Source of the DNA: Parcubacteria group bacterium ADurb.Bin115
Lineage (GTDB): Bacteria; Patescibacteriota; Patescibacteriia; Patescibacteriales; UBA12465
Direction of reading: 5' to 3'
NCBI GenBank assembly: GCA_002070735.1
Contig: MWDX01000032.1
Span: forward strand, 1-54,617
DNA: 54,617 nucleotides
Part shown: one piece after another, positions 5,194 to 54,254 of the stretch
How the letters are laid out: every line of letters starts with the position of its first letter
Position numbering within the stretch: the stretch's first letter is position 1
Position numbers and translations under genes: made by a program
The notes under the pieces: generated by a model
Database searches by the model: none
What the model was told of the DNA's origin: nothing
Seen by the model: only the letters and a program-made list of their open reading frames with translations

Positions 5194-7074
5194 ATGACCG
5201 CTAATGAGTTGAGACAAAAATATTTAGATTTTTTTAAGGCCAGGGGTCATGCCATCATCCCCAGTGCTTCTTTATTGCCGGAAAATGATTCTACTTTATT
5301 ATTTACCAACTCCGGCATGTTTCCCTTAGTGCCTTATCTTTTGGGAGAAAAGCATCCGGCCGGCATCCGTTTGGTTAATAGCCAAAAATCTTTTCGCACC
5401 GAGGATATTGAAGAAGTTGGCGATGGTCGCCATAATACTTTCTTTGAGATGCTTGGTAATTGGTCTTTAGGTGATTATTTCAAAGCGGAGCAATTAGCCT
5501 GGTGGCTAGAGTTTTTATTTGTTGAATTAAAATTGGATCCATCTCGTATTTATCAAACAGTTTATGCTGGTAGTGAAGACGGAAAAATAGCCAAGGACAA
5601 AGAATCAATTTTGATTTTACAGGATTTGTTTAAAAAATATGGTGTTAGTGCGGAGGAAGGGCCGGTTACTACTGGTAAAGGCGTCCTCGGTTCTGGTCAG
5701 GAGCTTGATTTTTCTAGGCAGAGAATATTTGCTTATCGCGATAAGAATTGGTGGCAAAAGGGCGATGTCGTAGGTGAGTTGGGCGGACCGGACAGTGAGA
5801 CTTTTTATGATACCGGCAAAGAGCATGATTTAGCTTATGGTCCCCATTGCCATCCTAATTGCGATTGCGGCCGTTTCTTGGAAATCGGCAATTCGGTGTT
5901 TATGCAATATCAGAAAACAGCTGAGGGCTGGCAGGAATTAAAGAATAAAAATGTTGATTTTGGCGGCGGTCTGGAGAGAATTTTAATGGTTTTAAACGGA
6001 CAAGACAGTATTTTTAAAACTGATCTTTTTACCAGGGCGATGGCGAAAATCGAAGAACTGTCCGGCAAGAAATATGCTGATAATAAGAGGGCTTTTGAGG
6101 TTATTGTTGATCATTTAAAAGCGGCGACCTTTATTGTCGGCGATGACCACGGCGTGCCGCCCTCAAATACTGATCAGGGCTATATCGTCCGCCGTCTTCT
6201 GCGTCGCGCTATTCGTTATGGTCGTCAAATCGGTATTTCTCAGGAGAAGTGGTTGAAAGAAGCGGCTCTCATTTTTATTGATGACTACGCCGCCACTTAT
6301 CCGGAATTAAAGAATAATCAAGAATTTATTTTTGCGGAGTTTGAAAAGGAAGAAGAAAAATTCAACCGGACTCTGGAGAAGGGGATGATTGAATTTAAAA
6401 AATTAGCGACGCATGATTTAAACGGTGTGGCCGCTTTTAATCTTTACCAAAGTTACGGTTTCCCTTTAGAAATAACGGAAGAATTAGCCGCTGAACACGG
6501 GATTAAGGTTGATAGACAGGGTTTTATGGCCGAACTACAAAAGCATCAAGAACTTTCCCGCACCGCTTCTGCCGGTAAATTTAAAGGCGGTTTGGCTGAC
6601 CACAGCGAAGAAACAACAAAACTTCATACGGCCGCTCATTTACTCTTAGCGGCCTTGCGCCAAGTTTTGGGCAATCATGTTAGCCAAAAGGGAAGTAATA
6701 TCACCGCCGAACGTCTGCGCTTTGATTTTTCTTATCCGGAAAAAATGACGCCGGCACAAATTGCGTCTGTTGAAAAATTGGTTAACGAGGCGATTGGTAA
6801 GGGTTTAGACGTTGCTTTTGAGGAGATTTCTTTATCTGAAGCTAGGGCGAGCGGCGCGACCGGAGTTTTTAATTCTAAATACGGTGACCGCGTTAAAGTA
6901 TATACCATTGGGCATAATAATGGCGGCAGACACGCGTCTTGGGAAGATATTTTTTCCAGAGAAATTTGCGGCGGTCCCCATGTTTCCAGTCTTAAAAATC
7001 TCGGACATTTTAAGATTCAAAAAGAAGAGGCCTCGTCGTCCGGTGTCAGGAGGATTAAGGCTATTTTAGAATGA
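5194..7074 (+). CDS. alaS: Alanine--tRNA ligase, short form without C-Ala domain
   Basis: AlaRS is a class II synthetase charging tRNA-Ala and clearing mischarged Ser/Gly in its editing domain. The 626-residue protein keeps the N-terminal catalytic core (TNSGMFPLVPYL; RTEDIEEVGDGRHNTFFEML; GGGLERILMVLNG), the tRNA-recognition helices and the editing domain with HxxxH (H478, H482) and C592xxxH596. It ends right after the editing domain at GVRRIKAILE, so the DHHA1/C-Ala domain of the usual roughly 875-residue enzyme is absent. The C-terminus is followed by a normal TGA and a good promoter for the next operon, so I read it as naturally short, not broken. Confidence 0.95.
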   Translation: MTANELRQKYLDFFKARGHAIIPSASLLPENDSTLLFTNSGMFPLVPYLLGEKHPAGIRLVNSQKSFRTEDIEEVGDGRHNTFFEMLGNWSLGDYFKAEQLAWWLEFLFVELKLDPSRIYQTVYAGSEDGKIAKDKESILILQDLFKKYGVSAEEGPVTTGKGVLGSGQELDFSRQRIFAYRDKNWWQKGDVVGELGGPDSETFYDTGKEHDLAYGPHCHPNCDCGRFLEIGNSVFMQYQKTAEGWQELKNKNVDFGGGLERILMVLNGQDSIFKTDLFTRAMAKIEELSGKKYADNKRAFEVIVDHLKAATFIVGDDHGVPPSNTDQGYIVRRLLRRAIRYGRQIGISQEKWLKEAALIFIDDYAATYPELKNNQEFIFAEFEKEEEKFNRTLEKGMIEFKKLATHDLNGVAAFNLYQSYGFPLEITEELAAEHGIKVDRQGFMAELQKHQELSRTASAGKFKGGLADHSEETTKLHTAAHLLLAALRQVLGNHVSQKGSNITAERLRFDFSYPEKMTPAQIASVEKLVNEAIGKGLDVAFEEISLSEARASGATGVFNSKYGDRVKVYTIGHNNGGRHASWEDIFSREICGGPHVSSLKNLGHFKIQKEEASSSGVRRIKAILE

Positions 7075-10632: not shown

Positions 10633-10989
10633 ATGAATAAAATTGAAAGAAAAATCCACAAACTCGATGCTGCCGGCCAGGCGGTCGGACGTTTAGCTAG
10701 TCAGATCGCGATTATTTTGCGCGGCAAAAATAAGCCGGAATTTCTGCCTTATGTTGATGGCGGCGATATTGTTGAAGTTGAAAATATTGCACAAATGTCT
10801 TTTAGCGGCCAGAAACTCCTGCAGAAGAAATATTTTAGTTATTCCGGTTATCTCAGTGGTTTGAAGAGCAAAAGAATGTCTGAGGTTTTCAGTCAGAATC
10901 CGGGAGAAGTTTTGCGCCGGGCGGTAAAACAGATGTTACCCCCGACCAAATTGCGCGACGCGCAAATGAAGCGCTTAATTATTAGATAA
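10633..10989 (+). CDS. rplM: 50S ribosomal protein uL13
   Basis: uL13 is an early assembly protein of the 50S subunit. The start is placed at MNKIERKIHKLDAAGQ (10633), giving 118 residues; the upstream frame overlaps rplQ and is rejected. AVGRLASQIAIILRGKNKPEF, the Y-SGY-like KYFSYSGYLSGLKSK segment and the RRAVKQMLPPTKLRDAQMKRL helix are typical. It is shorter than the usual roughly 142 residues, losing the C-terminal HPH-type extension. It pairs with rpsI as in most bacteria. Confidence 0.94.
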   Translation: MNKIERKIHKLDAAGQAVGRLASQIAIILRGKNKPEFLPYVDGGDIVEVENIAQMSFSGQKLLQKKYFSYSGYLSGLKSKRMSEVFSQNPGEVLRRAVKQMLPPTKLRDAQMKRLIIR

Positions 10990-11000
10990 TCTAACGTTTT

Positions 11001-11534
11001 ATGGAAAAGAAGACTAAAACAGTAAAAGAAAAGAAAGTCCGGGCGCCGAAGAAGGCGGTGATTGAAGAGGTGTCGACTGAATTTTCTAATGAAGAAGAAG
11101 CGAAGAAAAATGCTTTTAAAGATATACCGGAAACAGCGGAGTTTAAGGGGGAATATATTCAAACTGTTGGTCGTCGCAAGACTTCCGTTGCTCAAGTGAG
11201 GATGTATAAAGACGGTAAAGGAGTTATTATGATTAACGGCAAGAAGGGCAGCCAATTTTTTGTCGGTGAAGGCATGAGTATCGTTACTCAGCCATTAAAA
11301 GCTACCGGCCATGTCCGTGATCTTAATTTTTCCATTATCGTGAAAGGCGGCGGTATTACCGGCCAGATTGAAGCTTGTCGTCACGGCCTCGCCCGAGCTT
11401 TACTGGTGCTCGACCCACTACTTAAAGAAGCTTTGAAAGCCAATAAATTTTTGACTCGCGATCCGCGTAAAAAGGAAAGAAAGAAGCCTGGTTTTAAGGG
11501 GGCGCGCAAACGTCCGCAGTGGAGCAAGCGTTAA
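11001..11534 (+). CDS. rpsI: 30S ribosomal protein uS9 with N-terminal extension
   Basis: uS9 reaches the P-site tRNA with its C-terminal basic tail. The core starts near residue 52 (YIQTVGRRKTSVAQVRMYKDG) and ends with GARKRPQWSKR, including the universal final Lys-Arg. The first 50 residues are a Lys/Glu-rich low-complexity extension, giving 177 residues against the usual 130. It is the last gene of the operon and is followed by a strong terminator. Confidence 0.95.
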   Translation: MEKKTKTVKEKKVRAPKKAVIEEVSTEFSNEEEAKKNAFKDIPETAEFKGEYIQTVGRRKTSVAQVRMYKDGKGVIMINGKKGSQFFVGEGMSIVTQPLKATGHVRDLNFSIIVKGGGITGQIEACRHGLARALLVLDPLLKEALKANKFLTRDPRKKERKKPGFKGARKRPQWSKR

Positions 11535-11571
11535 CATAGATATCTCTTAGATATCTCTATAGATTATATAC

Positions 11572-11601
11572 AAAAAACTTCCTAATTTTAGGGAGTTTTT
11601 T
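11572..11601 (+). terminator. Intrinsic terminator of the infA-rpsI operon
   Basis: AAAAAACTTCCT pairs with AGGGAGTTTTTT (one T-G pair) around AATTTT, ending in a run of six T. It lies 37 nt after the rpsI stop. Confidence 0.85.
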
Positions 11602-11682
11602 GATATTTAATTTAATCATGTATGGTCGAAATTTCAGAAAAGAGGTGATTTTCTCGCTCCGTAATATTGCTAATCACCCGTC

Positions 11683-11702
11683 ATTCCCGCGAAGGCGGGA
11701 AT
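11683..11702. repeat. REP/dRS3-like palindromic repeat
   Basis: ATTCCCGCGAAGGCGGGAAT has the form ATTCCC-N8-GGGAAT, the same layout as the Neisseria dRS3 repeat and similar dispersed palindromes in other bacteria. The flanks (CCCGTC and CCAGA) also match the common context of these repeats. Only one copy was noticed in this window, so repeat status is by resemblance. Confidence 0.5.
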
Positions 11703-11803
11703 CCAGAAATATTCAATAATAACAAAAAAATGGAGTTATATATTAAATGTTAAAACAAGTAAATAGGTGATATTATGCTTAATTTTAGCTGAATAATCAA
11801 GCC

Positions 11804-11832
11804 TTGACGCTTCTTGTATATTATAATATACT
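11804..11832 (+). promoter_or_regulatory. Promoter of the AAA ATPase gene
   Basis: TTGACG (11804-11809), a 17-nt spacer and TATACT (11827-11832) precede the gene by 33 nt. The inserted gene therefore has its own housekeeping-type promoter. Confidence 0.7.
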
Positions 11833-11865
11833 AGAGATAGGCATTTGTAATATAACATAATAAAC

Positions 11866-13290
11866 ATGAATAATGATTTGATACAATATATACAACAGCA
11901 GATTAGAACCACGGGAGAAAGAATTAAGAGATATACACACAGCCCCAGAGGAGAAAAATATCCTCAACGTTTTATGTTTGCAAAGATCAAACAGTACATT
12001 GATGGATTTTTGGATAAAACTCAAGATAACAGAATGGTTATTATTCCTGGTTTTAGGGGCGTTGGTAAAACTACATTAATGGCGCAAATATGCGCAGCTT
12101 ATTCAAGGAAGGTGGAAAATATTTTATTTTTATCCGTGGAAGAAACAGAAAATTTATTAAACGCGGGAGTCAATGATATTATTTTTGCTTTTGAAAATGT
12201 TATTGGGCAAAGTATTGAAGAACTAAAAAAACCAACTTTAATATTTTTAGATGAAATACAAACGGACCCTAAATGGGCTATTAGTCTGAAAACTTTATTT
12301 GACAAAACATCAAATGTATTTTTTTGTTGTACTGGCTCATCGGCAATTATTTTACAAACTACAACAAATTTGGTTAGAAGAGCTTTATTTGAGAGAATGC
12401 CGCCCATGTCATTTATAGAGTATGAGATAATTAAAAATCAAACATTTCCTAAAAACGGTTTAAAAGATAAGATACGCCAAATAGTATATTTTTCAAATTC
12501 TGCAGAAGAAGTGTTTAATAGGTTGCAGGACTTACAAGGAGATGTTAATAATTGTTGGTCAAAAATAAATAGACATGATATTAGAACTTATTTATCATAC
12601 GGAACCTTGCCTTTTTCGCTTATAATGCCAAACGAAACAGCGGTGTATGATGCCATATCATTACTGTTGGATAAAATTATAAAACAAGATTTACCAACTC
12701 TTGGAAGTTTTGATCAAGATACTTTGGGCGCTGTAAAAAGGATATTGTTTGCTATCGCAGAAAACGACACAACCAGTCTCGGCACATTGGAAGAGAGATT
12801 CAAAATAAATCGTTTAACTATATCAAATATTTTTGAGGCGCTGGAAAAAGTGGAATTATTGATAAAAGTGCCGGCTTATGGATCAAATATGACAGTTGCC
12901 AAGAAGCCGAATAAATATTTGTTTATGTCGCCGGCAATCAGAATGACTTTCTTTTATTTTACGGGGCAAGAAAGCACATATTTAACCAGACAAGGCAAGT
13001 TGCTGGAAGACTCTTTTGCATCTCATCTTTATCGTGAATTTATTTTAAAAAATCAGGGTTTGGTGCGATATGACAGCGCTCAAGGCGGAGCTGATTTTAT
13101 TTTGCAGATTATGAACAATAAACAGATAGTGATTGAAGTTGGCATGGGGAATAAAGATGTAAAACAAATAGCCACTACCACTAAAAAAATTAATTCTGAT
13201 TATAATTTGATTTTTTCAAATACCGAATTAAAAATCAACGAGGAATTAAAGACGGTTTTTATTCCTTTGGATTATTATTTTTTGATGTAA
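11866..13290 (+). CDS. AAA ATPase with C-terminal nuclease-like domain (DUF4143-type)
   Basis: This 474-residue protein has a P-loop ATPase domain: Walker A PGFRGVGKTT near residues 62-71, Walker B LIFLDEIQ near 125-132 and a sensor-like CCTGSSA. A winged-helix-like middle follows (ERFKINRLTISNIFEALEKVELL). The C-terminus has a PD-(D/E)XK-like layout (GADFILQI ... IVIEVG). This is the arrangement of the widespread ATPase/DUF4143 family, whose cellular role is poorly defined. The gene is visibly AT-richer than its neighbours, has its own promoter and splits two housekeeping blocks, which suggests transfer. A link to defence or toxin-like functions is inference only. Confidence 0.75.
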   Translation: MNNDLIQYIQQQIRTTGERIKRYTHSPRGEKYPQRFMFAKIKQYIDGFLDKTQDNRMVIIPGFRGVGKTTLMAQICAAYSRKVENILFLSVEETENLLNAGVNDIIFAFENVIGQSIEELKKPTLIFLDEIQTDPKWAISLKTLFDKTSNVFFCCTGSSAIILQTTTNLVRRALFERMPPMSFIEYEIIKNQTFPKNGLKDKIRQIVYFSNSAEEVFNRLQDLQGDVNNCWSKINRHDIRTYLSYGTLPFSLIMPNETAVYDAISLLLDKIIKQDLPTLGSFDQDTLGAVKRILFAIAENDTTSLGTLEERFKINRLTISNIFEALEKVELLIKVPAYGSNMTVAKKPNKYLFMSPAIRMTFFYFTGQESTYLTRQGKLLEDSFASHLYREFILKNQGLVRYDSAQGGADFILQIMNNKQIVIEVGMGNKDVKQIATTTKKINSDYNLIFSNTELKINEELKTVFIPLDYYFLM

Positions 13291-45937: not shown

Positions 45938-46040
45938 ATTAGTAAATATTTCTATTGAAATATTTTGTTTTTTAAGCAGGGAGCAGGACTTTCGACAATT
46001 TAATATTCCCGGGTAGCGCAGCGGTAGCGCAGTTGGCTGT

Positions 46041-46587
46041 GAACACACTTTCTCTTTTGCTATAATATTATTATGACAAAAGATAAGAGAAAAGACGCTG
46101 ATCGTGCCGAATATTTAAAGGCGATGGTTAATGGTGGCGAAAGCAAATCCGTTAATTAGCCTTTGAATATAAAGGTGGCAAATGTTCCGTTTGCGGTGAC
46201 GATAGATGTTTAAAGGCTCTTGAATTTCATCACTTGGAATCTGATAAAAAATTTTGGTATATCTGCTAAAGGTTATACCAGAAGCTGGCAGGTTATAAAG
46301 AAAGAGCTGGATAAATGTATATTGTTAGGCGCAAATTGTCATCGTGAGGTGCACGTAAGCAACACGCAGCTTCCTCAAGTAATTGTGGAAAGAAAACGAG
46401 GTGAACTGTCTGGAAGCCTAAAATCGAAAGATTATGGTAATCAGCAGCCAAGCCCTAATTCGTTAGGGAAGGTTCAGAGACTATCCTGAAAAGGAGTAGG
46501 CCCGTTCTTAGAACGGCCCGAAGTGCCTCGCATCCATTATTTGGATGATGATATAGTCCACACCATTAAGAAATTAGTGGGTAAGTG
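46041..46587 (+). ncRNA. Group I self-splicing intron in the tRNA-Asn anticodon loop
   Basis: The 547-nt insert starts after a U (46040) and ends with G (46587), as group I introns do. The core motifs are present: GCAGCCAAG (46444-46452), a CCCTAA-TTCG-TTAGGG hairpin (46453-46468), GTTCAGAGACTA (46472-46483) and GATATAGTCC (46550-46559), with GACTAT and ATAGTC able to form P7. A further hairpin CATCCA/TGGATG lies near 46531-46547. The position between the second and third anticodon bases (35/36) prevents the unspliced RNA from working as a tRNA. It contains a decayed HNH endonuclease gene. Confidence 0.88.
46073..46489 (+). pseudogene. Decayed HNH homing endonuclease in the intron
   Basis: The reading frame starts at 46073 with MTKDKRKDADRAEYL and stops at TAG (46157-46159). 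In the next frame (from 46162) the sequence continues FEYKGGKCSVCGDDRC ... LEFHHL, and in a third frame (from about 46250) ISAKGYTRSWQVIKKELDK ... NCHREVH. Together these give an HNH domain (two CxxC zinc knuckles, HH and NCH motifs) typical of intron-encoded endonucleases, broken by two frameshifts. It is probably inactive; sequence error is an alternative. Confidence 0.8.
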
Positions 46588-46634
46588 TAACCAATTGGTC
46601 GTGGGTTCGAATCCCACCCCGGGAGCTAGGAATA

Positions 46635-46660
46635 AAATAGGCTGATATAAGCCTATTTTT
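46635..46660 (+). terminator. Intrinsic terminator after tRNA-Asn
   Basis: AATAGGCT pairs with AGCCTATT around GATATA, followed by TTTT. It ends the tRNA transcript right after the 3' exon. Confidence 0.8.
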
Positions 46661-46719
46661 GATTTTGCCAATTAAAAACCCTTGCAGGTTTAACATTTTG
46701 TTGATGCATTTTAACATAG

Positions 46720-46786
46720 AAATAGTGGTTAATTATTAGCTAAAGTTGGGAAACTTTATTTTACAGCTAATTTTACCACTATTTTT
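46720..46786. repeat. Long inverted repeat between the tRNA and the accessory genes
   Basis: AAATAGTGGT (46720-46729) pairs with ACCACTATTT (46775-46784), inside it TTAGCT with AGCTAA (46736-46741/46765-46770), and in the centre AAAGTT-GG-GA-AACTTT. Together a long interrupted hairpin of about 65 nt. It could be a terminator, a MITE-like element or a recognition site at the edge of the accessory region. Confidence 0.5.
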
Positions 46787-46830
46787 GTTTTATCCACCAC
46801 ACTAATTATTATAGAGCCTAATTTCACGCA

Positions 46831-46859
46831 TTGACTTTTGTCAATTTTTGTGGAAAAAT
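46831..46859 (+). promoter_or_regulatory. Promoter upstream of the RNase H-like gene
   Basis: TTGACT (46831-46836), 17 nt, then an extended -10 with TGG-AAAAAT (46851-46859). The expected start lies only a few nt before the ATG at 46873. Confidence 0.5.
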
Positions 46860-46872
46860 TAAAGCAAAATAT

Positions 46873-47721
46873 ATGTCGGCTACGAATGATTTAATTATTA
46901 ACTGCGACGGATCAGCTATTGGCGGACGCGGTAAAATAGTGGGTTGCGCTGGGATAGTTAAGTATCCAGACTATTGTGAAAAGCCAGACGAAATAATACA
47001 GTTGGCATATAATATGGGTACTTGTACAAATATGGAGATTTTGTCCATTCTTAATTCCATAAAATGGGTTAATGGCCATCAAGAAGATTTGAAAAGCTTA
47101 GGAGTAACGAGGATTATTATATATAACGATTGTGATACGGTAGTTGATATATGTAATAAGTGGGTTTTTCAATGGGTAAGCAATGGCTGGAAAAGGAATG
47201 ATGGCGGAGATATTAAAAATCTTAGCACCTGGAAAGAATATTATAGGGAACAAAGAAAAATGACTTTTCCGTTCGAGATACATTGGGTGAAAGGGAAAAA
47301 GACAGAAGAAAGAAAAGCGGTTGATAAGTTGGCAAAATTAGCAACACATCAGCAAATTAAAAAAGTCAATTTTAATTACATCCCAGTTAAACAGGGCAGA
47401 ACGTTGACTAAAAATAAATTTATACTAGAAGATTATAATGCTTCTGGACAACAAGCTATCATCAGGGTTTATTTTCATTCAATAATAAATAGGACTAAAG
47501 GTTCTGATTATGAAATAAGATTTGAAGAAATAGATGATAAATTTCAAGTAGTCGGTAGATATAGAGCTTACGCATCAAAAGAAATAGACAGAGCGGTTGA
47601 TAGAGGACATTTTTATAAAGCCAAATTCAATGATAGAAAGCCACCATTTATACTTGATATTCGAACGCTAAAAATTAATCAGGAATCTAGTATAAATAAA
47701 AAGGTGAAGTCTAATATGTAG
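46873..47721 (+). CDS. RNase HI-like protein with an extra C-terminal domain
   Basis: The 282-residue protein starts with MSATNDLIINCDGSA. RNase H-fold acidic residues appear in order: DGSA, NMEIL (Glu in a helix), IYNDCDTVVD and the final VDKLAKLA, with the HWVKGKK loop before the last. This matches RNase HI-type catalytic geometry (D-E-D-D). About 100 residues follow (SGQQAIIRVYFHSIINRTKGSDYEIRFEEIDDKFQV) that I do not recognise, so it may be more than a household RNase H. It is AT-rich, the first gene after the tRNA, and 5 nt from the next gene. Confidence 0.75.
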   Translation: MSATNDLIINCDGSAIGGRGKIVGCAGIVKYPDYCEKPDEIIQLAYNMGTCTNMEILSILNSIKWVNGHQEDLKSLGVTRIIIYNDCDTVVDICNKWVFQWVSNGWKRNDGGDIKNLSTWKEYYREQRKMTFPFEIHWVKGKKTEERKAVDKLAKLATHQQIKKVNFNYIPVKQGRTLTKNKFILEDYNASGQQAIIRVYFHSIINRTKGSDYEIRFEEIDDKFQVVGRYRAYASKEIDRAVDRGHFYKAKFNDRKPPFILDIRTLKINQESSINKKVKSNM

Positions 47722-47726
47722 AGGTT

Positions 47727-48185
47727 ATGGAAATAAAGAATCTAACAACAAAAAATCTTTTAGAACTTTATGCAAATATTGTAGAAGAGTTAAGAAGTAG
47801 AAAGATCGTTAGAACTAAAAATAACATAGTTGCTGATTATGCCGAATATTTAGTTGCAAAAAATTTGAATTTAGAACTAATGCCAAATTCAAATAAACAT
47901 TTTGACGCAATTGACAACAAAACTAACTATAAATTTCAAATCAAGTCTAGAAGAATTACTAACTACAACAAGTCAAAACTTCTTGGGGTTGTAAGAGATT
48001 TAGATTTTACTGGCTTTGATTATTTGGTTGTTGTATATTTTGATATTAATTTCAAGGTTATAGAATCATTCATGATACCAAAGGAGATATTAAAAATATA
48101 TTCTAAATATAACAAACTCCAGAATGGATATAGGATTTCATCAAAAGTTTTTGAGGATGCTTCTGTAAAAAAAATTAATTTATGA
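47727..48185 (+). CDS. PD-(D/E)XK-like protein (DUF6998-like)
   Basis: The 152-residue protein has a pattern KHFDAIDN...YKFQIKSRR that fits the Asp then (E/Q)xK core of PD-(D/E)XK nuclease folds (here QIK), preceded by the helix ADYAEYLVAKNLNLELMPNS. The layout resembles DUF6998. FDYLVVVYFDINFKV and the FMIPKEIL region follow. A restriction-enzyme-like or DNA-related role is plausible but not shown. Its neighbour is an RNase H-like gene. Confidence 0.6.
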   Translation: MEIKNLTTKNLLELYANIVEELRSRKIVRTKNNIVADYAEYLVAKNLNLELMPNSNKHFDAIDNKTNYKFQIKSRRITNYNKSKLLGVVRDLDFTGFDYLVVVYFDINFKVIESFMIPKEILKIYSKYNKLQNGYRISSKVFEDASVKKINL

Positions 48186-48244
48186 ACGTAAAAAAATTAA
48201 TAAAAAAAGATTGGCACGTGGACGCAGGTATAATTTTTTTATAA
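48182..48244 (+). pseudogene. Short truncated frame overlapping the previous stop
   Basis: ATG 48182 overlaps the TGA of the PD-(D/E)XK-like gene (ATGA). Twenty codons, MNVKKLIKKDWHVDAGIIFL, then TAA. The start resembles the first residues of HicA-type toxins (K-V-K-E-L-I-K...), but the rest is missing. It is most likely a remnant or chance. Confidence 0.2.
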
Positions 48245-48335
48245 TTTTATTAGCGTCAGCAGGTTTTAGTGCTGTTAATAGCAATATATTTATAATAATC
48301 TGCACGTATAAGTAGATATAACGCATAATATTTTA

Positions 48336-48494
48336 ATGAAATACAAAAGAATATCTGAATTGGAATGCGATTCGGAAAAGGTGGTAAAAATTGGTAATTT
48401 AATTATTCGTGATTTAAATAAAAGCGTGAATGATTTGGTCGATGATTTTAAAAAAATGTCTATTGAAGCTTATGGATATGTTAAAGAAAAGTAA
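48336..48494 (+). pseudogene. 5' part of a frameshifted two-domain gene
   Basis: This frame encodes 52 residues (MKYKRISELECDSEKVVKIG ... EAYGYVKEK). It ends at TAA 48492, while the downstream -1 frame (from about 48487) carries on as VIKRLYKYTNIFNRGIKIESPKRF with no start codon of its own until 48656. Together they read as one gene broken by a single-base shift in the A-rich TTAAAGAAAAG. See the next entry. Confidence 0.4.
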
Positions 48495-48655
48495 TTAAGC
48501 GTTTATATAAATATACGAATATCTTTAATAGAGGAATAAAAATAGAATCACCAAAGAGATTCAAAAATGTCGGAGAAAATTTTGTTATTTCTGGTTCAGT
48601 TTCTAGGGCCTGGCTTAAATCCGAAATTGGATATAGAGACTGTATTTCTATTGAG

Positions 48656-49486
48656 ATGTATGATATTAATAGCCGATTGATTATGGGTGGTAATGTTATT
48701 TTAGGGGTTTCAAGCGATGAAATAGAAAAATCTGATGATAGTAGGTTTTTTGATTTTCTTTACATCTTTCAGTTCCATTTCGGAAGTGGGCTAAAAGAGT
48801 CATTTGGTTGTATGACTATCAGGCTACAAGGTTGGGGAAAAAAATCACAATCTATTTTTATACCTGTAAATGTAAAATTTTTTAATCCAGACGGTGGGTT
48901 GAGCGGAAAAATTAAAAGAAGGCATAAAAAGGTAGGTAGCTTAGTTGAGAAATATGAGAGAGATTCTGTTGTATATGATAAAAAGATGTCAAAAATTTAT
49001 CAGAGTCGTCAAAAAAAGTCTTATATAAATGACGAAAAAGATGATCAAACGCAGTATGTTATTCCATTTGATAATGATAGATGGCAAATGCTGGAAGGCC
49101 TTTTAGGTGTATTTGAGGAGAGCGGCGAGGAAGTGCCTAAAAAATATACATTTTCAAAAGAAGATTTGGCCGAAGAAAAATTAAAAAAGAAATATAAAAA
49201 TCTGATTGAATGGCGTGGCCCATTGTGTGGCGGCACAATAGGAAACATGGATGGTTTCCAATTTACTGTATATAGTAACGATCATGGAGGTCATTTTCAC
49301 GTCATACATAAAGGTCGGCGTGTTGATGCTAGGTTTTCTTTCCCGGATATTAAATTAATTAGTTATAAGTCCAAGAATTATATTAGCTCTAAAGAAGCAG
49401 TAAAAATAGCTGATTATTTTAAATTACCTCAGAATTTTAAAGTATTAGAAGATGAATTTAAAAGAAGAGAGAGTGCTTTAAAATAG
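48656..49486 (+). CDS. 3' part of the frameshifted gene: Gmad2-like and DUF4160-like domains
   Basis: From the ATG at 48656, 276 residues are open, but protein-like sequence starts earlier (about 48490). The extended N-terminus IESPKRFKNVGENFVISGSV resembles a Gmad2 immunoglobulin-like domain (surface or export proteins), and the first residues after 48656 complete it. A charged linker (KYERDSVVYDKKMSKIY) follows. The C-terminal part has YSNDHGGHFHVIHKGRRVDARF, close to the DUF4160 pattern NDH..PHFHV. The combination is unusual. Function is unknown; if the frameshift is real, the gene is inactive or starts internally. Confidence 0.5.
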   Translation: MYDINSRLIMGGNVILGVSSDEIEKSDDSRFFDFLYIFQFHFGSGLKESFGCMTIRLQGWGKKSQSIFIPVNVKFFNPDGGLSGKIKRRHKKVGSLVEKYERDSVVYDKKMSKIYQSRQKKSYINDEKDDQTQYVIPFDNDRWQMLEGLLGVFEESGEEVPKKYTFSKEDLAEEKLKKKYKNLIEWRGPLCGGTIGNMDGFQFTVYSNDHGGHFHVIHKGRRVDARFSFPDIKLISYKSKNYISSKEAVKIADYFKLPQNFKVLEDEFKRRESALK

Positions 49487-49725
49487 TTTATTACTATTAT
49501 TTCCTTATTCTGTCAAATAGCCAATAAAATAAGCCCTTTGCACTGTCCTATTTGTTCCATTTTTTTTCAAATACCCGACCGACTCCCGTTATTTTGGCCT
49601 AGAAAAATACCCCTTAAACCCTTTGGAAACTGCTAGTTTTTCAGTTTGAATCCAACGTGTGGAGCCAACAAAATTTTAGTGTAGTAGACCGAGATATTTC
49701 GTCTAATATTAGTCAAAAAATAAAG

Positions 49726-49750
49726 AAACTCAGTTTATGCTGAGTTTTTT
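49726..49750 (+). terminator. Intrinsic terminator
   Basis: AAACTCAG pairs with CTGAGTTT around TTTATG, followed by a T-run. It lies 240 nt after the frameshifted gene. Confidence 0.75.
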
Positions 49751-49961
49751 AAAGGGCAGGAAACCCTGCACGAGCTGCCAGCGAGTGCGGGGAGGAGGTC
49801 ATTCGAAATAACCTCTAATGATTGGTAACTAGCCGACTAAATATATTATCAAGCCAATGCTTCGTCGGGAGTTTTACGCTTTTTATACATCGCCGCCAAC
49901 TCTCCAATAAAACAGTTTATTTCATTTTGAAAATACTCTAGATATTTATCGACTATAAACC

Positions 49962-49986
49962 AAAAAGGGCAAGAAATTGCCTTTTT
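49962..49986. terminator. Bidirectional terminator-like hairpin upstream of nurA
   Basis: AAAAAGG(G)CAA pairs with TTGCCTTTTT around GAAA, with a single bulged G. A-run and T-run make it functional on both strands. It insulates the nurA operon. Confidence 0.6.
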
Positions 49987-50029: not shown

Positions 50030-50038
50030 TGGTAGAAT
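50030..50038 (+). promoter_or_regulatory. Extended -10 promoter of the nurA-herA-druA-like operon
   Basis: TGG-TAGAAT (TGnTAGAAT) at 50030-50038 lies 64 nt upstream of the nurA-like ATG. The -35 region is weak (TTCCAG). Confidence 0.45.
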
Positions 50039-50102
50039 TATAGCATAAAAGCTTTTAGGATATATTAGTAAATTCTTTATATAGAAAAAGCATTAATTTT
50101 TT

Positions 50103-51341
50103 ATGTTTTTAATTACAGAAGAAACAATTAATTCTGTTGCAAAACAGATAAATGAAAGAAATAGTAAAAATTATTCTATCCCAATAATAGGGGATGAAAC
50201 AAATTCAGAAATACCGCATTTTTTTGAAATTTTAAATTTTGAAGAAATAGATAAGACTGAAAGAAAATTTTATGCTATAGATGGAAGTTATAATAGCCAC
50301 CAGTTTTATAATGGACTTGCTGTTGGTATTTACTCAGCTGGTTATGTTTGTTATTACAAAGGTAAAGAATTAAGAATGAATAAAAATGCAGATCCGGTAA
50401 TTTTGGGAAAATCATATTACCCAAATAACATTTTAATTTTAAATCAGAACGATCTAAATGAAATATACGATGAACTTCTGGTGTTAGAGCCCGTAAAAAA
50501 ACTTATAAATTTTTTTCAAACTAACCCAGAAGAAATATTTTCTTATGGCAAAGATACTGTTTGTAGTAGCCTCTCAACCCTTTTGTCTTTTTCACAAGAA
50601 ATTTTAGAATGGTCCTTGGTTTTGGAAATAGCTAACCTTGAAGAAACTAAAAAAGGTGATTTTATTCTTCGGGATGGACCATTACGCTCACTACAAATTA
50701 AACAAGAGTTTTTGGTTAGGTTGGGTGAGTATTTGCATTCCAAAGAAATAATAATTGTCGGAATTACAAAAAATTCTCCTATTAAAATGGAACTCTCATA
50801 TACGTATAAGCAAATAGATGATTATTTGCAGGATCAGCTAAAGCCAAAATTTTGTTTTTCAATAGATGATGTAAAAAGACAAAAATTATGCTGTTGGTTC
50901 GAAGTGCCAGATTCAGTGTTGCTGGCATCATATGGTGGCGATAGAGGGTCTGCGATGTATACTAAAAAAGATATAAAAGGTGGCAGAGGTTTTGGCTTTT
51001 TTTCTACCGCTCGCCTTGATTATGTTGAAAAATTACAGAACTATGATTGGGTTATAGTTGATATAAATATTTTTGACGCTATACCTAATATTAAAATAAA
51101 GAATCCGAGTAGAGATTTAGACCAATTAAAAGTAATTTTTAAAGAGTTAACTCGTTTGACACAAGAACATTATATTCTTGGTTACCCATACCCCCTAGTT
51201 GAGGCACATAATTTTGTAACATTAAAAAAGGATTTCAAAGAAGAAATAATCAAGAGAGTCAAATCAGCTTTATATAGCGAACAACGATTAGATAACGTAG
51301 ATATAGAAAATTTATTTTTAGACATTCACGATAAATTTTAA
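50103..51341 (+). CDS. NurA-like nuclease
   Basis: NurA is an RNase H-fold nuclease that works with the HerA translocase in DNA end processing. This 412-residue protein has the metal-site Asp in AIDGSY (Asp60), a second in LRDGPL (Asp191), the GITKNS motif (about residues 220-225) and a C-terminal His in YPYPLVEAH (His369), in the order expected for NurA. Length is typical. It begins a three-gene operon with a HerA-like ATPase 22 nt downstream. NurA is common in archaea and occurs in bacteria mostly in repair or defence contexts. The AT-rich gene is clearly unlike the household part. Confidence 0.85.
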   Translation: MFLITEETINSVAKQINERNSKNYSIPIIGDETNSEIPHFFEILNFEEIDKTERKFYAIDGSYNSHQFYNGLAVGIYSAGYVCYYKGKELRMNKNADPVILGKSYYPNNILILNQNDLNEIYDELLVLEPVKKLINFFQTNPEEIFSYGKDTVCSSLSTLLSFSQEILEWSLVLEIANLEETKKGDFILRDGPLRSLQIKQEFLVRLGEYLHSKEIIIVGITKNSPIKMELSYTYKQIDDYLQDQLKPKFCFSIDDVKRQKLCCWFEVPDSVLLASYGGDRGSAMYTKKDIKGGRGFGFFSTARLDYVEKLQNYDWVIVDINIFDAIPNIKIKNPSRDLDQLKVIFKELTRLTQEHYILGYPYPLVEAHNFVTLKKDFKEEIIKRVKSALYSEQRLDNVDIENLFLDIHDKF

Positions 51342-51363
51342 ATAACTTATATTTATCAAAAAT

Positions 51364-53037
51364 ATGATTGAGAAAAATGATTTTGGCGTTCTTTATGGTC
51401 AAAAGACAACAGAGGATGCTTTGCTTATTTATTCATCTTATGCCGACTCAAAGGCTAGCCCAAAGACTGGCGATTTTATTGTATTAAGTCCGAGAGATGA
51501 AAATGGTGCTAAATATTTAGCGAGGGTCGAAGCAGAAGTTTATGATGAAGATCCAATTTTCAGATCCCAAGACAAAACATTAGTTGCTGTTCACTATGCT
51601 AGAATTGCCGAAAGAGAACTATCTGATAGAGATAAGCAAAAAATGTTTAGTTATACTTATAAGGTTAAAATTCTTGGGACCTTTACTGATAACGGAACGA
51701 AGATTCAGTTTATAACTGCCGTAAGAAAATTACCGACCGTTTCTTATCATGCGAGGCATTTAAATAAAAATGAGGTTGATCAGATATTAAATAAAGATAA
51801 CAAAGATGGAGCTGAAATGGGGTATTTATGTATTGGTGATGATGTTCAAGAAAGTAAGGGAAAAATATTATTTGATATTAATCGTTTAAAAGATAAAAGA
51901 ACAATGGTTTTTGCTCAATCTGGATTTGGTAAAACAAACTTAGTAAAAGTTTTGCTATATCATATAATAGGTGATAATAACTACGGGAAATTGATATTTG
52001 ATTTAAATGGAGAATACTTTTTAAGAGGTCAAAGAAATTACGGATTAGGCGATATTAACGAACAAAAAATAAAAGATAATTTAGTGGTGTATAGTGATAA
52101 AAATCTTCCATCAGAATATAGTGATCGTTTTATTTTTGGTGGTAAAGTTGCTATGAACATGTATGACAATCTTTCCGTGAGCGATGTTTTAAACTTTACT
52201 ACAGGTTTTTCCGAAGTAATGAAATCATTCCTAGTATATTTAAATGACGGAAATGTCGGAGATTTTATGAAAAAAATAGAAACTTATGCAAGCGAGCCTC
52301 AAAATTTATATAAAGATTTTCCAGATTTTTTTGGTAGTTTAAAGGAAAAGAAAGGAAAGGCAGAAGAATTTAAAGATGAGGCAAAGGCGAGGCCAACCAT
52401 TATGGGAATCAGAAAGAGAATAGGTTTTCTATTAGATAAGGAAAAAGGGCTCCATTCAGACAGTTCTACGTTGGTGGTTGATGTTTTTAAATATTTGAAA
52501 CAAGGGAAAACTGTTGTTATAGATCTTTCTCTCAAAGATAATGCTGAAGCCAGTATTATTTCTACAATTTTAGTAAGAAAACTATTTGAACTCAATAAAG
52601 CTAGTTATACCGCTGATAAACAAAACGATGTTATAAAGACAGTGATATTTGTTGAAGAAGCTCAAAATGTATTATCAGAGGAGTTTGTGAAGTCAAATGC
52701 AAATTATTTTGTAAGGGTAGCTAAAGAAGGTAGAAAATTTGGGATTGGAATGACTACAATAACTCAAAGACCATCTGCTATATCAGAAGAAATTAGAACT
52801 CAGGCAGAAAATTTTTTTGCATTTCATATGGGTAATTCAGATGATATTGTAGCACTCGTAAAATCAAATATAAATTATGATGGTGTAATATCAAAATTTA
52901 TTCAAACAGAAACCATCCCAGGCAATCTGTATATGGTTTCCTCTGACCAAGCTTTTGCCTTACCGGTTAGAGTGATTGAATTTGAAAAATTAGTAAACGA
53001 TAAAGTTTATAAGGAATTAAAATTTGAAAATATATAA
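51364..53037 (+). CDS. HerA-like hexameric DNA translocase
   Basis: The 557-residue protein has an N-terminal HAS-barrel-like region (GDFIVLSPRDENGAKYLARVEAEVYDEDP), Walker A AQSGFGKTN (residues 184-192), Walker B TVIFVEEAQN (426-435) and the sensor region TTITQRPSAISEEIRTQAENFFAFHMGN (from residue 464). These mark the HerA/FtsK group (DUF87). HerA pumps double-stranded DNA and stimulates NurA. Its stop codon overlaps the next start (TAATG at 53035-53039), which suggests translational coupling. Confidence 0.9.
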   Translation: MIEKNDFGVLYGQKTTEDALLIYSSYADSKASPKTGDFIVLSPRDENGAKYLARVEAEVYDEDPIFRSQDKTLVAVHYARIAERELSDRDKQKMFSYTYKVKILGTFTDNGTKIQFITAVRKLPTVSYHARHLNKNEVDQILNKDNKDGAEMGYLCIGDDVQESKGKILFDINRLKDKRTMVFAQSGFGKTNLVKVLLYHIIGDNNYGKLIFDLNGEYFLRGQRNYGLGDINEQKIKDNLVVYSDKNLPSEYSDRFIFGGKVAMNMYDNLSVSDVLNFTTGFSEVMKSFLVYLNDGNVGDFMKKIETYASEPQNLYKDFPDFFGSLKEKKGKAEEFKDEAKARPTIMGIRKRIGFLLDKEKGLHSDSSTLVVDVFKYLKQGKTVVIDLSLKDNAEASIISTILVRKLFELNKASYTADKQNDVIKTVIFVEEAQNVLSEEFVKSNANYFVRVAKEGRKFGIGMTTITQRPSAISEEIRTQAENFFAFHMGNSDDIVALVKSNINYDGVISKFIQTETIPGNLYMVSSDQAFALPVRVIEFEKLVNDKVYKELKFENI

Positions 53038-54254
53038 TGTTAAAAATACAGTTACAAAACAATTTAACTAAAACATATTTTAAAAAAATTAAATATGATT
53101 TAGATGGTATTGAAACAAGTTCTTTTGAGGAAAGGGTTAAGCTTTTAATTATAAGGGATCTATTAAGATTGGATTGGAAAGTAAATTTTGATAATGAAAA
53201 AATAGTAATTGTTCCCCCGAAAGATTACGATAAAGAGACAATAAGACAATCAATGGCAGTTAAGAGAGAGGAAATCCTATTTAAAAATAGAAAATGGATA
53301 GAAAATAACATAAATATCGCTCGGGAAAATTTAGCTGATGGTTGCGAAGTATTGAAATCTAAAATAAAGCCAATCGTTGAAATATGTGAAACGCCGGAGC
53401 AACATAAAATTTTTAGATTGTTTAGATACTATTGGTCGTCTCCGTATAGTGAATATGTTGGGAGAAGAATTAAAATTATTGTTCGTGATGATGGTATTAT
53501 TGGGAAACCAGTTATTGGTATTGCGGCACTAGGCAGTCCAATTATTCATATCCCAGAGAGAGATAACTGGGTTGGTTGGGATAAAAATACCAGAACTAAA
53601 AACATAATTTATACAATGGATGCTTATGTTATTGGGGCTTTGCCACCTTATAACTATATATTGGGAGGAAAATTAATGTCCTATCTTCTCGCCTCCAATG
53701 AAATTAGAGTAATATATGAAAAGAAATATAAGAATGAAATTACGAGAATCAAAAAAAGAAAAGCTAGCGATTTAGTTTGTTTATTTACAACAAGTTTGTA
53801 TGGTAAGAGTTCTCAGTATAACAGATTAAAATTTAATGATGAGCTTCTTTATAAGCCAATTGGAGAAACTAAGGGTTTCGGAACTCTGCATTTAACAGAA
53901 GAAACCTTTGAGGCAATGAAGCAACTGTTAAAAGAAAAAAATATTTTTGTTATGAATAAATTTGGAGATGGTCCTAGTTGGAGAATGAGAGTAATAAGAA
54001 CTGTCGGCGATCTCTTGGGATTTGATTCTGATTTTCTTTTAAAGCATTCGTTTAAGAGGAATGTTTATGCTATTCCTTTAGCAAAAAACTTTAAAAAGTT
54101 TTTAAATAATAAAGAAGAAAAACCAAAATATTATAATTATTCACAAAAAAATATTGTAAACTTTTGGAAAAGAAGATGGTTTAACAATAGAATTAAAAAT
54201 CCGATGATTATTGAACAGGTAACTAATTTTAAAAGAAATGATTTTAAGATATAA
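53037..54254 (+). CDS. DUF4338 (DruA-like) protein
   Basis: The 405-residue protein has the DUF4338 layout: VGRRIKIIVRDDGIIGKPVIGIAALGSPI, then PERDNWVGWDKNTRTKNI (Asp176), LPPYNYILGGKLMSYLLASNEI and the later ETKGFGTLHL segment. DUF4338 is the defining domain of DruA of the Druantia anti-phage system; its biochemical activity is not settled. Here it is not accompanied by the large DruE helicase in the visible window but by NurA- and HerA-like genes. It shares one base with the HerA-like stop codon. Confidence 0.8.
   Translation: MLKIQLQNNLTKTYFKKIKYDLDGIETSSFEERVKLLIIRDLLRLDWKVNFDNEKIVIVPPKDYDKETIRQSMAVKREEILFKNRKWIENNINIARENLADGCEVLKSKIKPIVEICETPEQHKIFRLFRYYWSSPYSEYVGRRIKIIVRDDGIIGKPVIGIAALGSPIIHIPERDNWVGWDKNTRTKNIIYTMDAYVIGALPPYNYILGGKLMSYLLASNEIRVIYEKKYKNEITRIKKRKASDLVCLFTTSLYGKSSQYNRLKFNDELLYKPIGETKGFGTLHLTEETFEAMKQLLKEKNIFVMNKFGDGPSWRMRVIRTVGDLLGFDSDFLLKHSFKRNVYAIPLAKNFKKFLNNKEEKPKYYNYSQKNIVNFWKRRWFNNRIKNPMIIEQVTNFKRNDFKI

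Follow-up and report, generated by a model that had tools for sequence, protein, structure and literature searches.

A conserved NurA–HerA–DruA gene cassette of Patescibacteria and other bacteria: a candidate modification–restriction defence system

A three-gene cassette encoding a NurA-family nuclease, a HerA-family DNA translocase and a DruA (DUF4338) protein is a real and strongly conserved unit. It was examined in a 54.6-kb contig from a 758-kb patescibacterial genome, and the whole of this contig (54,617 nucleotides) is referred to here as the window. We would put at somewhat short of an even chance the proposal that the cassette is a compact modification–restriction defence system, in which DruA would mark self DNA and HerA–NurA would degrade DNA that lacks the mark. 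DruA is an annotation derived from Druantia and applied in bacteria, archaea and phages to proteins without a known function. In the trio it occurs alone with two enzymes of known type, in a minimal and highly conserved cassette, which opens its role to direct testing. If DruA does mark DNA and the mark does protect from HerA–NurA, the cassette would tie TdpABC-type defence to Druantia and to the DUF4338 genes of phages, and restriction–modification biology would gain a non-methyl mark in many phyla, including the Patescibacteria.

The three genes are adjacent on one strand (Table 1), with 22 nt between NurA and HerA and a TAATG overlap between HerA and DruA, an arrangement given in a preliminary description of this DNA and borne out by the open reading frames of the window. 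The same description placed one extended -10 promoter ahead of the genes. The extended -10 element TGGTAGAAT is indeed there and is also found in the sister locus L016, but a promoter scan detected no matching -35 element, and the operon promoter is therefore unproven.

Table 1. Features of the cassette and of the DNA preceding it (window coordinates)
Feature	Position	Strand	Basis
tRNA-His, anticodon GTG, interrupted by group I intron	~46008-46624		anticodon read from the sequence by eye; Rfam
Group I intron	46311-46580		Rfam RF00028, E 1e-22
mREase_II gene	47727-48185		PADLOC
Terminator-like hairpin upstream of the operon	49963-49986	+	consensus scan only; 3 found vs 1.8 expected
Candidate extended -10 element TGGTAGAAT	50030-50038	+	sequence; common to sister locus L016
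NurA-family nuclease, 412 aa	50103-51341	+	Pfam NurA; TdpB closest solved relative; conservation
HerA-family DNA translocase, 557 aa	51364-53037	+	Pfam DUF87; TdpA closest solved relative; conservation
DruA (DUF4338), 405 aa; predicted GNAT-fold enzyme, proposed DNA-modifying subunit	53037-54254	+	Pfam, PADLOC, AlphaFold, VIA

All three family assignments, originally made from motifs, are confirmed by Pfam, each above the gathering score. The first protein belongs to NurA (PF09376; 3e-9, 37.2 bits, cut-off 21) and the second to DUF87/HerA (PF01935; 2.7e-17, 64.1 bits, cut-off 23.2), in agreement with its PADLOC label of HerA. The third matches DUF4338 over nearly the whole profile (PF14236; 3.8e-61, 207.3 bits, cut-off 27, positions 3–296 of 297) and DruA in PADLOC (9.6e-84), and the failure of this protein to match DUF4338, named beforehand as an outcome that would speak against the proposal, did not occur. 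The motifs likewise lie where they had been reported, namely D60, D191 and H369 in NurA, Walker A (GFGKTN) and Walker B (VEEAQN) in HerA, and RDNWVGWD in DruA. Catalytic residues are intact throughout the relatives: D60, E169, D191 and H369 of NurA are invariant in 31 of 31 proteins, and K190, E431 and E432 of HerA in 33 of 33, with G187 and G189 also preserved and a single T-to-K exception within GFGKTN. Profile searches against PDB chains gave TdpA for HerA (6.8e-29, the sole match below 1e-20) and TdpB for NurA (5.3e-5, the sole match up to 0.01). In HerA–NurA complexes, the motor is a HerA hexamer that feeds DNA to a dimeric NurA.

The genomes of 84,980 species were scanned with a two-sequence HerA alignment as the query, which returned 39 loci; since the scan relied on two short exact peptide patterns, this number is an under-count that favours close relatives. 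NurA, HerA and DruA are encoded on one strand in all 35 loci whose HerA gene is whole, in the order NurA–HerA–DruA in 34 and with DruA first in the remaining one (L033), so that a lack of joint conservation in other genomes, which had been foreseen as a possible refutation, was not encountered. Of the four other loci, L049 and L052 are cut by a contig end, and in L048 and L053 HerA is shortened and other genes come after it. Spacing in the relatives is mostly 0–22 nt between NurA and HerA, and HerA and DruA either overlap or lie up to 47 nt apart. At least 12 named phyla are represented, including Cyanobacteriota, Bacteroidota, Chloroflexota, Spirochaetota, Acidobacteriota, Myxococcota and Nitrospirota, and the mean pairwise identity is 0.70 for HerA, 0.60 for NurA and 0.42 for DruA. 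The nearest named relative is a Falkowbacteria genome (L016; 97% identity in HerA, 94% in NurA and 93% in DruA), in agreement with a patescibacterial origin of the DNA, and strong matches to both NurA and DruA occur in 2 of 380 sampled Patescibacteria genomes (the window's own and G027). The cassette is rare within any one lineage but reaches across many and is strongly conserved, a pattern consistent with horizontal spread.

Carriage of the cassette by phages or plasmids is not supported, since scans of viral contigs with HerA, with DruA and with a 33-row HerA alignment yielded zero relatives, and plasmid and phage records contained none encoding a NurA of the window type or a close HerA. Two distant hosts possess an extra gene of ~340 aa between NurA and HerA (L036:1634-2665 and L042:6975-7994). 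Its products are homologous to each other (29%, E 2e-52), belong to no known family and likely carry membrane segments at the end; this gene may be an optional fourth component.

The DruA proteins of the trios comprise a clade a, to which the window protein belongs, and a mixed set b that has the DruAs of plasmid Druantia nested within it. On the HerA tree the a/b label requires 7 changes, at least 3 of them being forced by strongly supported branches, and the correlation of distances is 0.70 for HerA–NurA versus 0.27 for HerA–DruA. Taken together, the label switches and the correlations show a motor–nuclease core that remains constant while DruA is exchanged, in a manner reminiscent of the specificity-setting parts of restriction–modification systems.

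The operon was originally described as part of an accessory stretch behind a tRNA gene. It follows dnaG, rpoD and a tRNA, which reading of the sequence and Rfam identify as a tRNA-His split by a group I intron. ARAGORN reported zero tRNA genes in the window or in L016, missing the tRNA-His because the intron divides the gene. In L016 the cassette is likewise preceded by the same tRNA site, and here too the tRNA-His is split by an intron (~5335-5955). The intron encodes an HNH endonuclease frame, which looks open in L016 (102 aa) and disrupted in the window. The 3.3 kb between tRNA and cassette in the window (46629-49946) are without a match in L016; the genes found there (46831-49486) encode an RNase H-like protein, an mREase_II/DUF6998 protein and one protein of no known family. 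A search of the window and of L016, allowing up to 4 edits, did not detect a second copy of the tRNA 3′ end such as an integrated element would leave.

A role in defence, the central suggestion of the preliminary description, fits the spread of the cassette and its neighbours but is not proven. Defence genes are modestly enriched around the cassette. An XhoI-type restriction–modification pair adjoins the cassette in G027/L044, and PADLOC identified the mREase_II gene upstream in the window. Annotation of 140 flanking genes with PADLOC and Pfam revealed restriction and abortive-infection genes and also ordinary metabolism; restriction–modification families head the PADLOC matches, with few genes per family. 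Because these neighbours are mixed, membership of defence islands is suggestive only. The operon did not turn out to be a known repair or conjugation cassette. Directly 3′ of the cassette, L016 carries a gene for a Shedu (SduA) nuclease (10851-12155).

The nature of DruA is central to the proposal. AlphaFold models were obtained for DruA of the window (pLDDT 86) and for a second subtype from Planktothrix (L024, 30% identical, pLDDT 85.7), and the structural matches of both are almost exclusively GNATs, with top VIA matches at Z 8.6–10.3. Mom of phage Mu (8bv8), an enzyme that modifies adenine in DNA, comes first for both the window model (Z 10.3, rmsd 4.0, 177 of 222 residues) and the L024 model (Z 10.1, rmsd 4.1, 185 of 222 residues), and the RNA cytidine acetyltransferases TmcA and Kre33 also rank high. 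By the aligner's rule, Z differences below 1 are ties, so that Mom is not separated from ordinary acetyltransferases; a GNAT fold of DruA is well supported by the models, and a specific link to Mom is suggestive only. Comparison of DruA profiles with a 12-member Mom alignment (hhalign) gave non-significant probabilities of 2.4% and 1.2%, the Mom family PF25680 was absent from the Pfam matches of the window DruA, and PDB sequence searches with DruA or its profile returned nothing meaningful. In a fusion with DndF, DUF4338 has already been described as a GNAT domain (PMC10853773).

Residues R143, D151, R175, D176, W181, K212, Y231, R263, T278, R318 and R341 are invariant in 35 DruA proteins, including those of Druantia and one phage member, and R175, D176 and W181 fall inside the RDNWVGWD motif. 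These residues are as expected of an active site, which suggests catalysis. The recognition of DNA by DruA, as initially put forward, is not the best reading, the predicted fold being that of a GNAT enzyme with Mom as the top, albeit tied, match. DUF4338 genes are also present in 24 phage records, among marine Pelagibacter and Synechococcus phages, and that of Pelagibacter phage Mosig (L014:3554-4852) lies near 2OG-Fe(II) oxygenase genes. These phage proteins may be phage DNA-modifying enzymes.

In the modification–restriction system that we propose, DruA would chemically mark self DNA at short target sites, the mark being probably a base modification of acyl type or like that of Mom. A HerA hexamer would encircle DNA and drive it into an attached NurA dimer, which would degrade DNA without the mark, probably that of phages or other foreign DNA, while the mark on self DNA would block loading, translocation or cutting. 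TdpABC is a DNA-phosphorothioation defence of extreme thermophiles, in which TdpC reportedly introduces the phosphorothioate, which protects self DNA from degradation by TdpAB, and in Druantia the place held by DruA in type I is taken in type II by a methylase (DruM). These two precedents, together with the predicted fold and with a methyltransferase encoded beside HerA and NurA in Deferribacter (discussed below), each of them an indirect support, lead us to regard DruA as a probable modifying enzyme, to which the third slot of related motor–nuclease loci points by analogy. A more specific version, in which DUF4338/DruA is a Mom-like DNA-modifying family and the trio a restriction–modification system whose GNAT-made, non-methyl mark protects self DNA from HerA–NurA, is possible, though we lean against it; if true, it would account for what DruA does in Druantia as well.

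The tie of Mom with other acetyltransferases and the non-significant profile comparison count against DNA marking, and the function of DruA may instead be DNA binding or protein acetylation. The former was the model of the preliminary description, in which DruA does not modify DNA but binds it, as a targeting or sensor subunit, and brings in HerA–NurA on recognising invader DNA or a replication intermediate. DruA is the fast-changing, swapped part of the cassette, as a recognition part would be, its many invariant arginines could bind DNA, and profiles detect no homology with Mom. Nevertheless, we hold this model to be unlikely, as the predicted fold is an enzyme fold and the invariance of R143, D151, R175, D176, K212, Y231 and R263 across Druantia, phage and trio proteins suggests catalysis. 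It is improbable that the substrate of DruA is not DNA but a protein, be it HerA, NurA or one of phage or host origin, whose acylation would serve as a switch or toxin. Mom comes first for both DruA models, and the third slot of related motor–nuclease loci is occupied by DNA-modifying enzymes such as the Deferribacter methyltransferase, even if N-acetyltransferases that act on proteins or small molecules form the majority of the top structural matches.

Among solved proteins HerA and NurA are nearest to TdpA and TdpB, which raises the question of whether the cassette is an ordinary TdpABC, TdpC itself being a DUF4338 protein and DruA the maker of phosphorothioate. This is decidedly improbable: the window HerA and NurA share little sequence identity, most of it local, with TdpA and TdpB, searches of PDB sequences returned no DruA relative, and TdpC is said to activate the DNA backbone with ATP, a chemistry not suggested by a GNAT fold. 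A DNA-repair cassette, with DruA as a helper in end resection by HerA–NurA, would be in keeping with the resection role of these proteins in archaea and some bacteria and with a HerA–NurA pair in Pontibacillus that has genes for a metallophosphoesterase and an SMC ATPase behind it. However, the trio is patchy in its home phylum (2 of 380 genomes), HerA retains ~70% identity across phyla with DruA always present, and restriction genes adjoin several loci, all of which makes a repair cassette very improbable.

In SIR2-HerA and DUF4297-HerA a HerA motor is also coupled to a defence effector, but the effectors are others and a modification-like third component is lacking. The archaeal and bacterial HerA–NurA end-resection complex has the same motor and nuclease families and likely the same assembly, whereas the trio has no link to Mre11–Rad50, always includes DruA, and is patchy and apparently horizontally spread. 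Mom resembles DruA in predicted GNAT fold, without a significant sequence-profile match, and Mom stems from a phage whereas DruA is accompanied by a nuclease and a motor. On the Deferribacter plasmid pDF308 (L055:1460-7933), genes for a DNA methyltransferase, HerA and NurA stand in a row: the methyltransferase lies 4 nt before HerA, which is broken by IS200/605, and a gene annotated NurA follows. Profile comparison of the trio NurA with that of Deferribacter gave a weak local match, and this locus is therefore an analogy of layout and not proven kin. A literature search, with many journals outside its coverage, retrieved no paper naming DruA, NurA and HerA together.

Type I Druantia shares DruA with the cassette, and some trio DruAs group with Druantia DruA. 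A Druantia locus unites DruA with DruB–D and the DruE helicase, and a long helicase gene adjoins DruA in such loci, whereas only NurA and HerA accompany DruA here. Neither a large DEAD/DEAH helicase (DruE) nor DruB–D was found in the window or next to the cassette of L016, long helicase genes being absent from ~7 kb upstream of the cassette in the window and from either side of it in L016. The closest known system, overlooked in the preliminary description, is TdpABC, which likewise combines a HerA-type motor and a NurA-type nuclease with a third gene. TdpA and TdpB (PDB 8wet, 8wfd, 8y1k) are the closest solved relatives of the window HerA and NurA and, at the cut-offs given above, their sole profile matches in the PDB, with a sequence similarity that is low and mostly local. 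The window differs in its third gene, which encodes a DUF4338 protein of predicted GNAT fold, and in its gene order of nuclease, motor and DruA. Of the readings considered, a defence system of modification–restriction type is the most likely, kin to TdpABC through its motor–nuclease pair and to Druantia through DruA.
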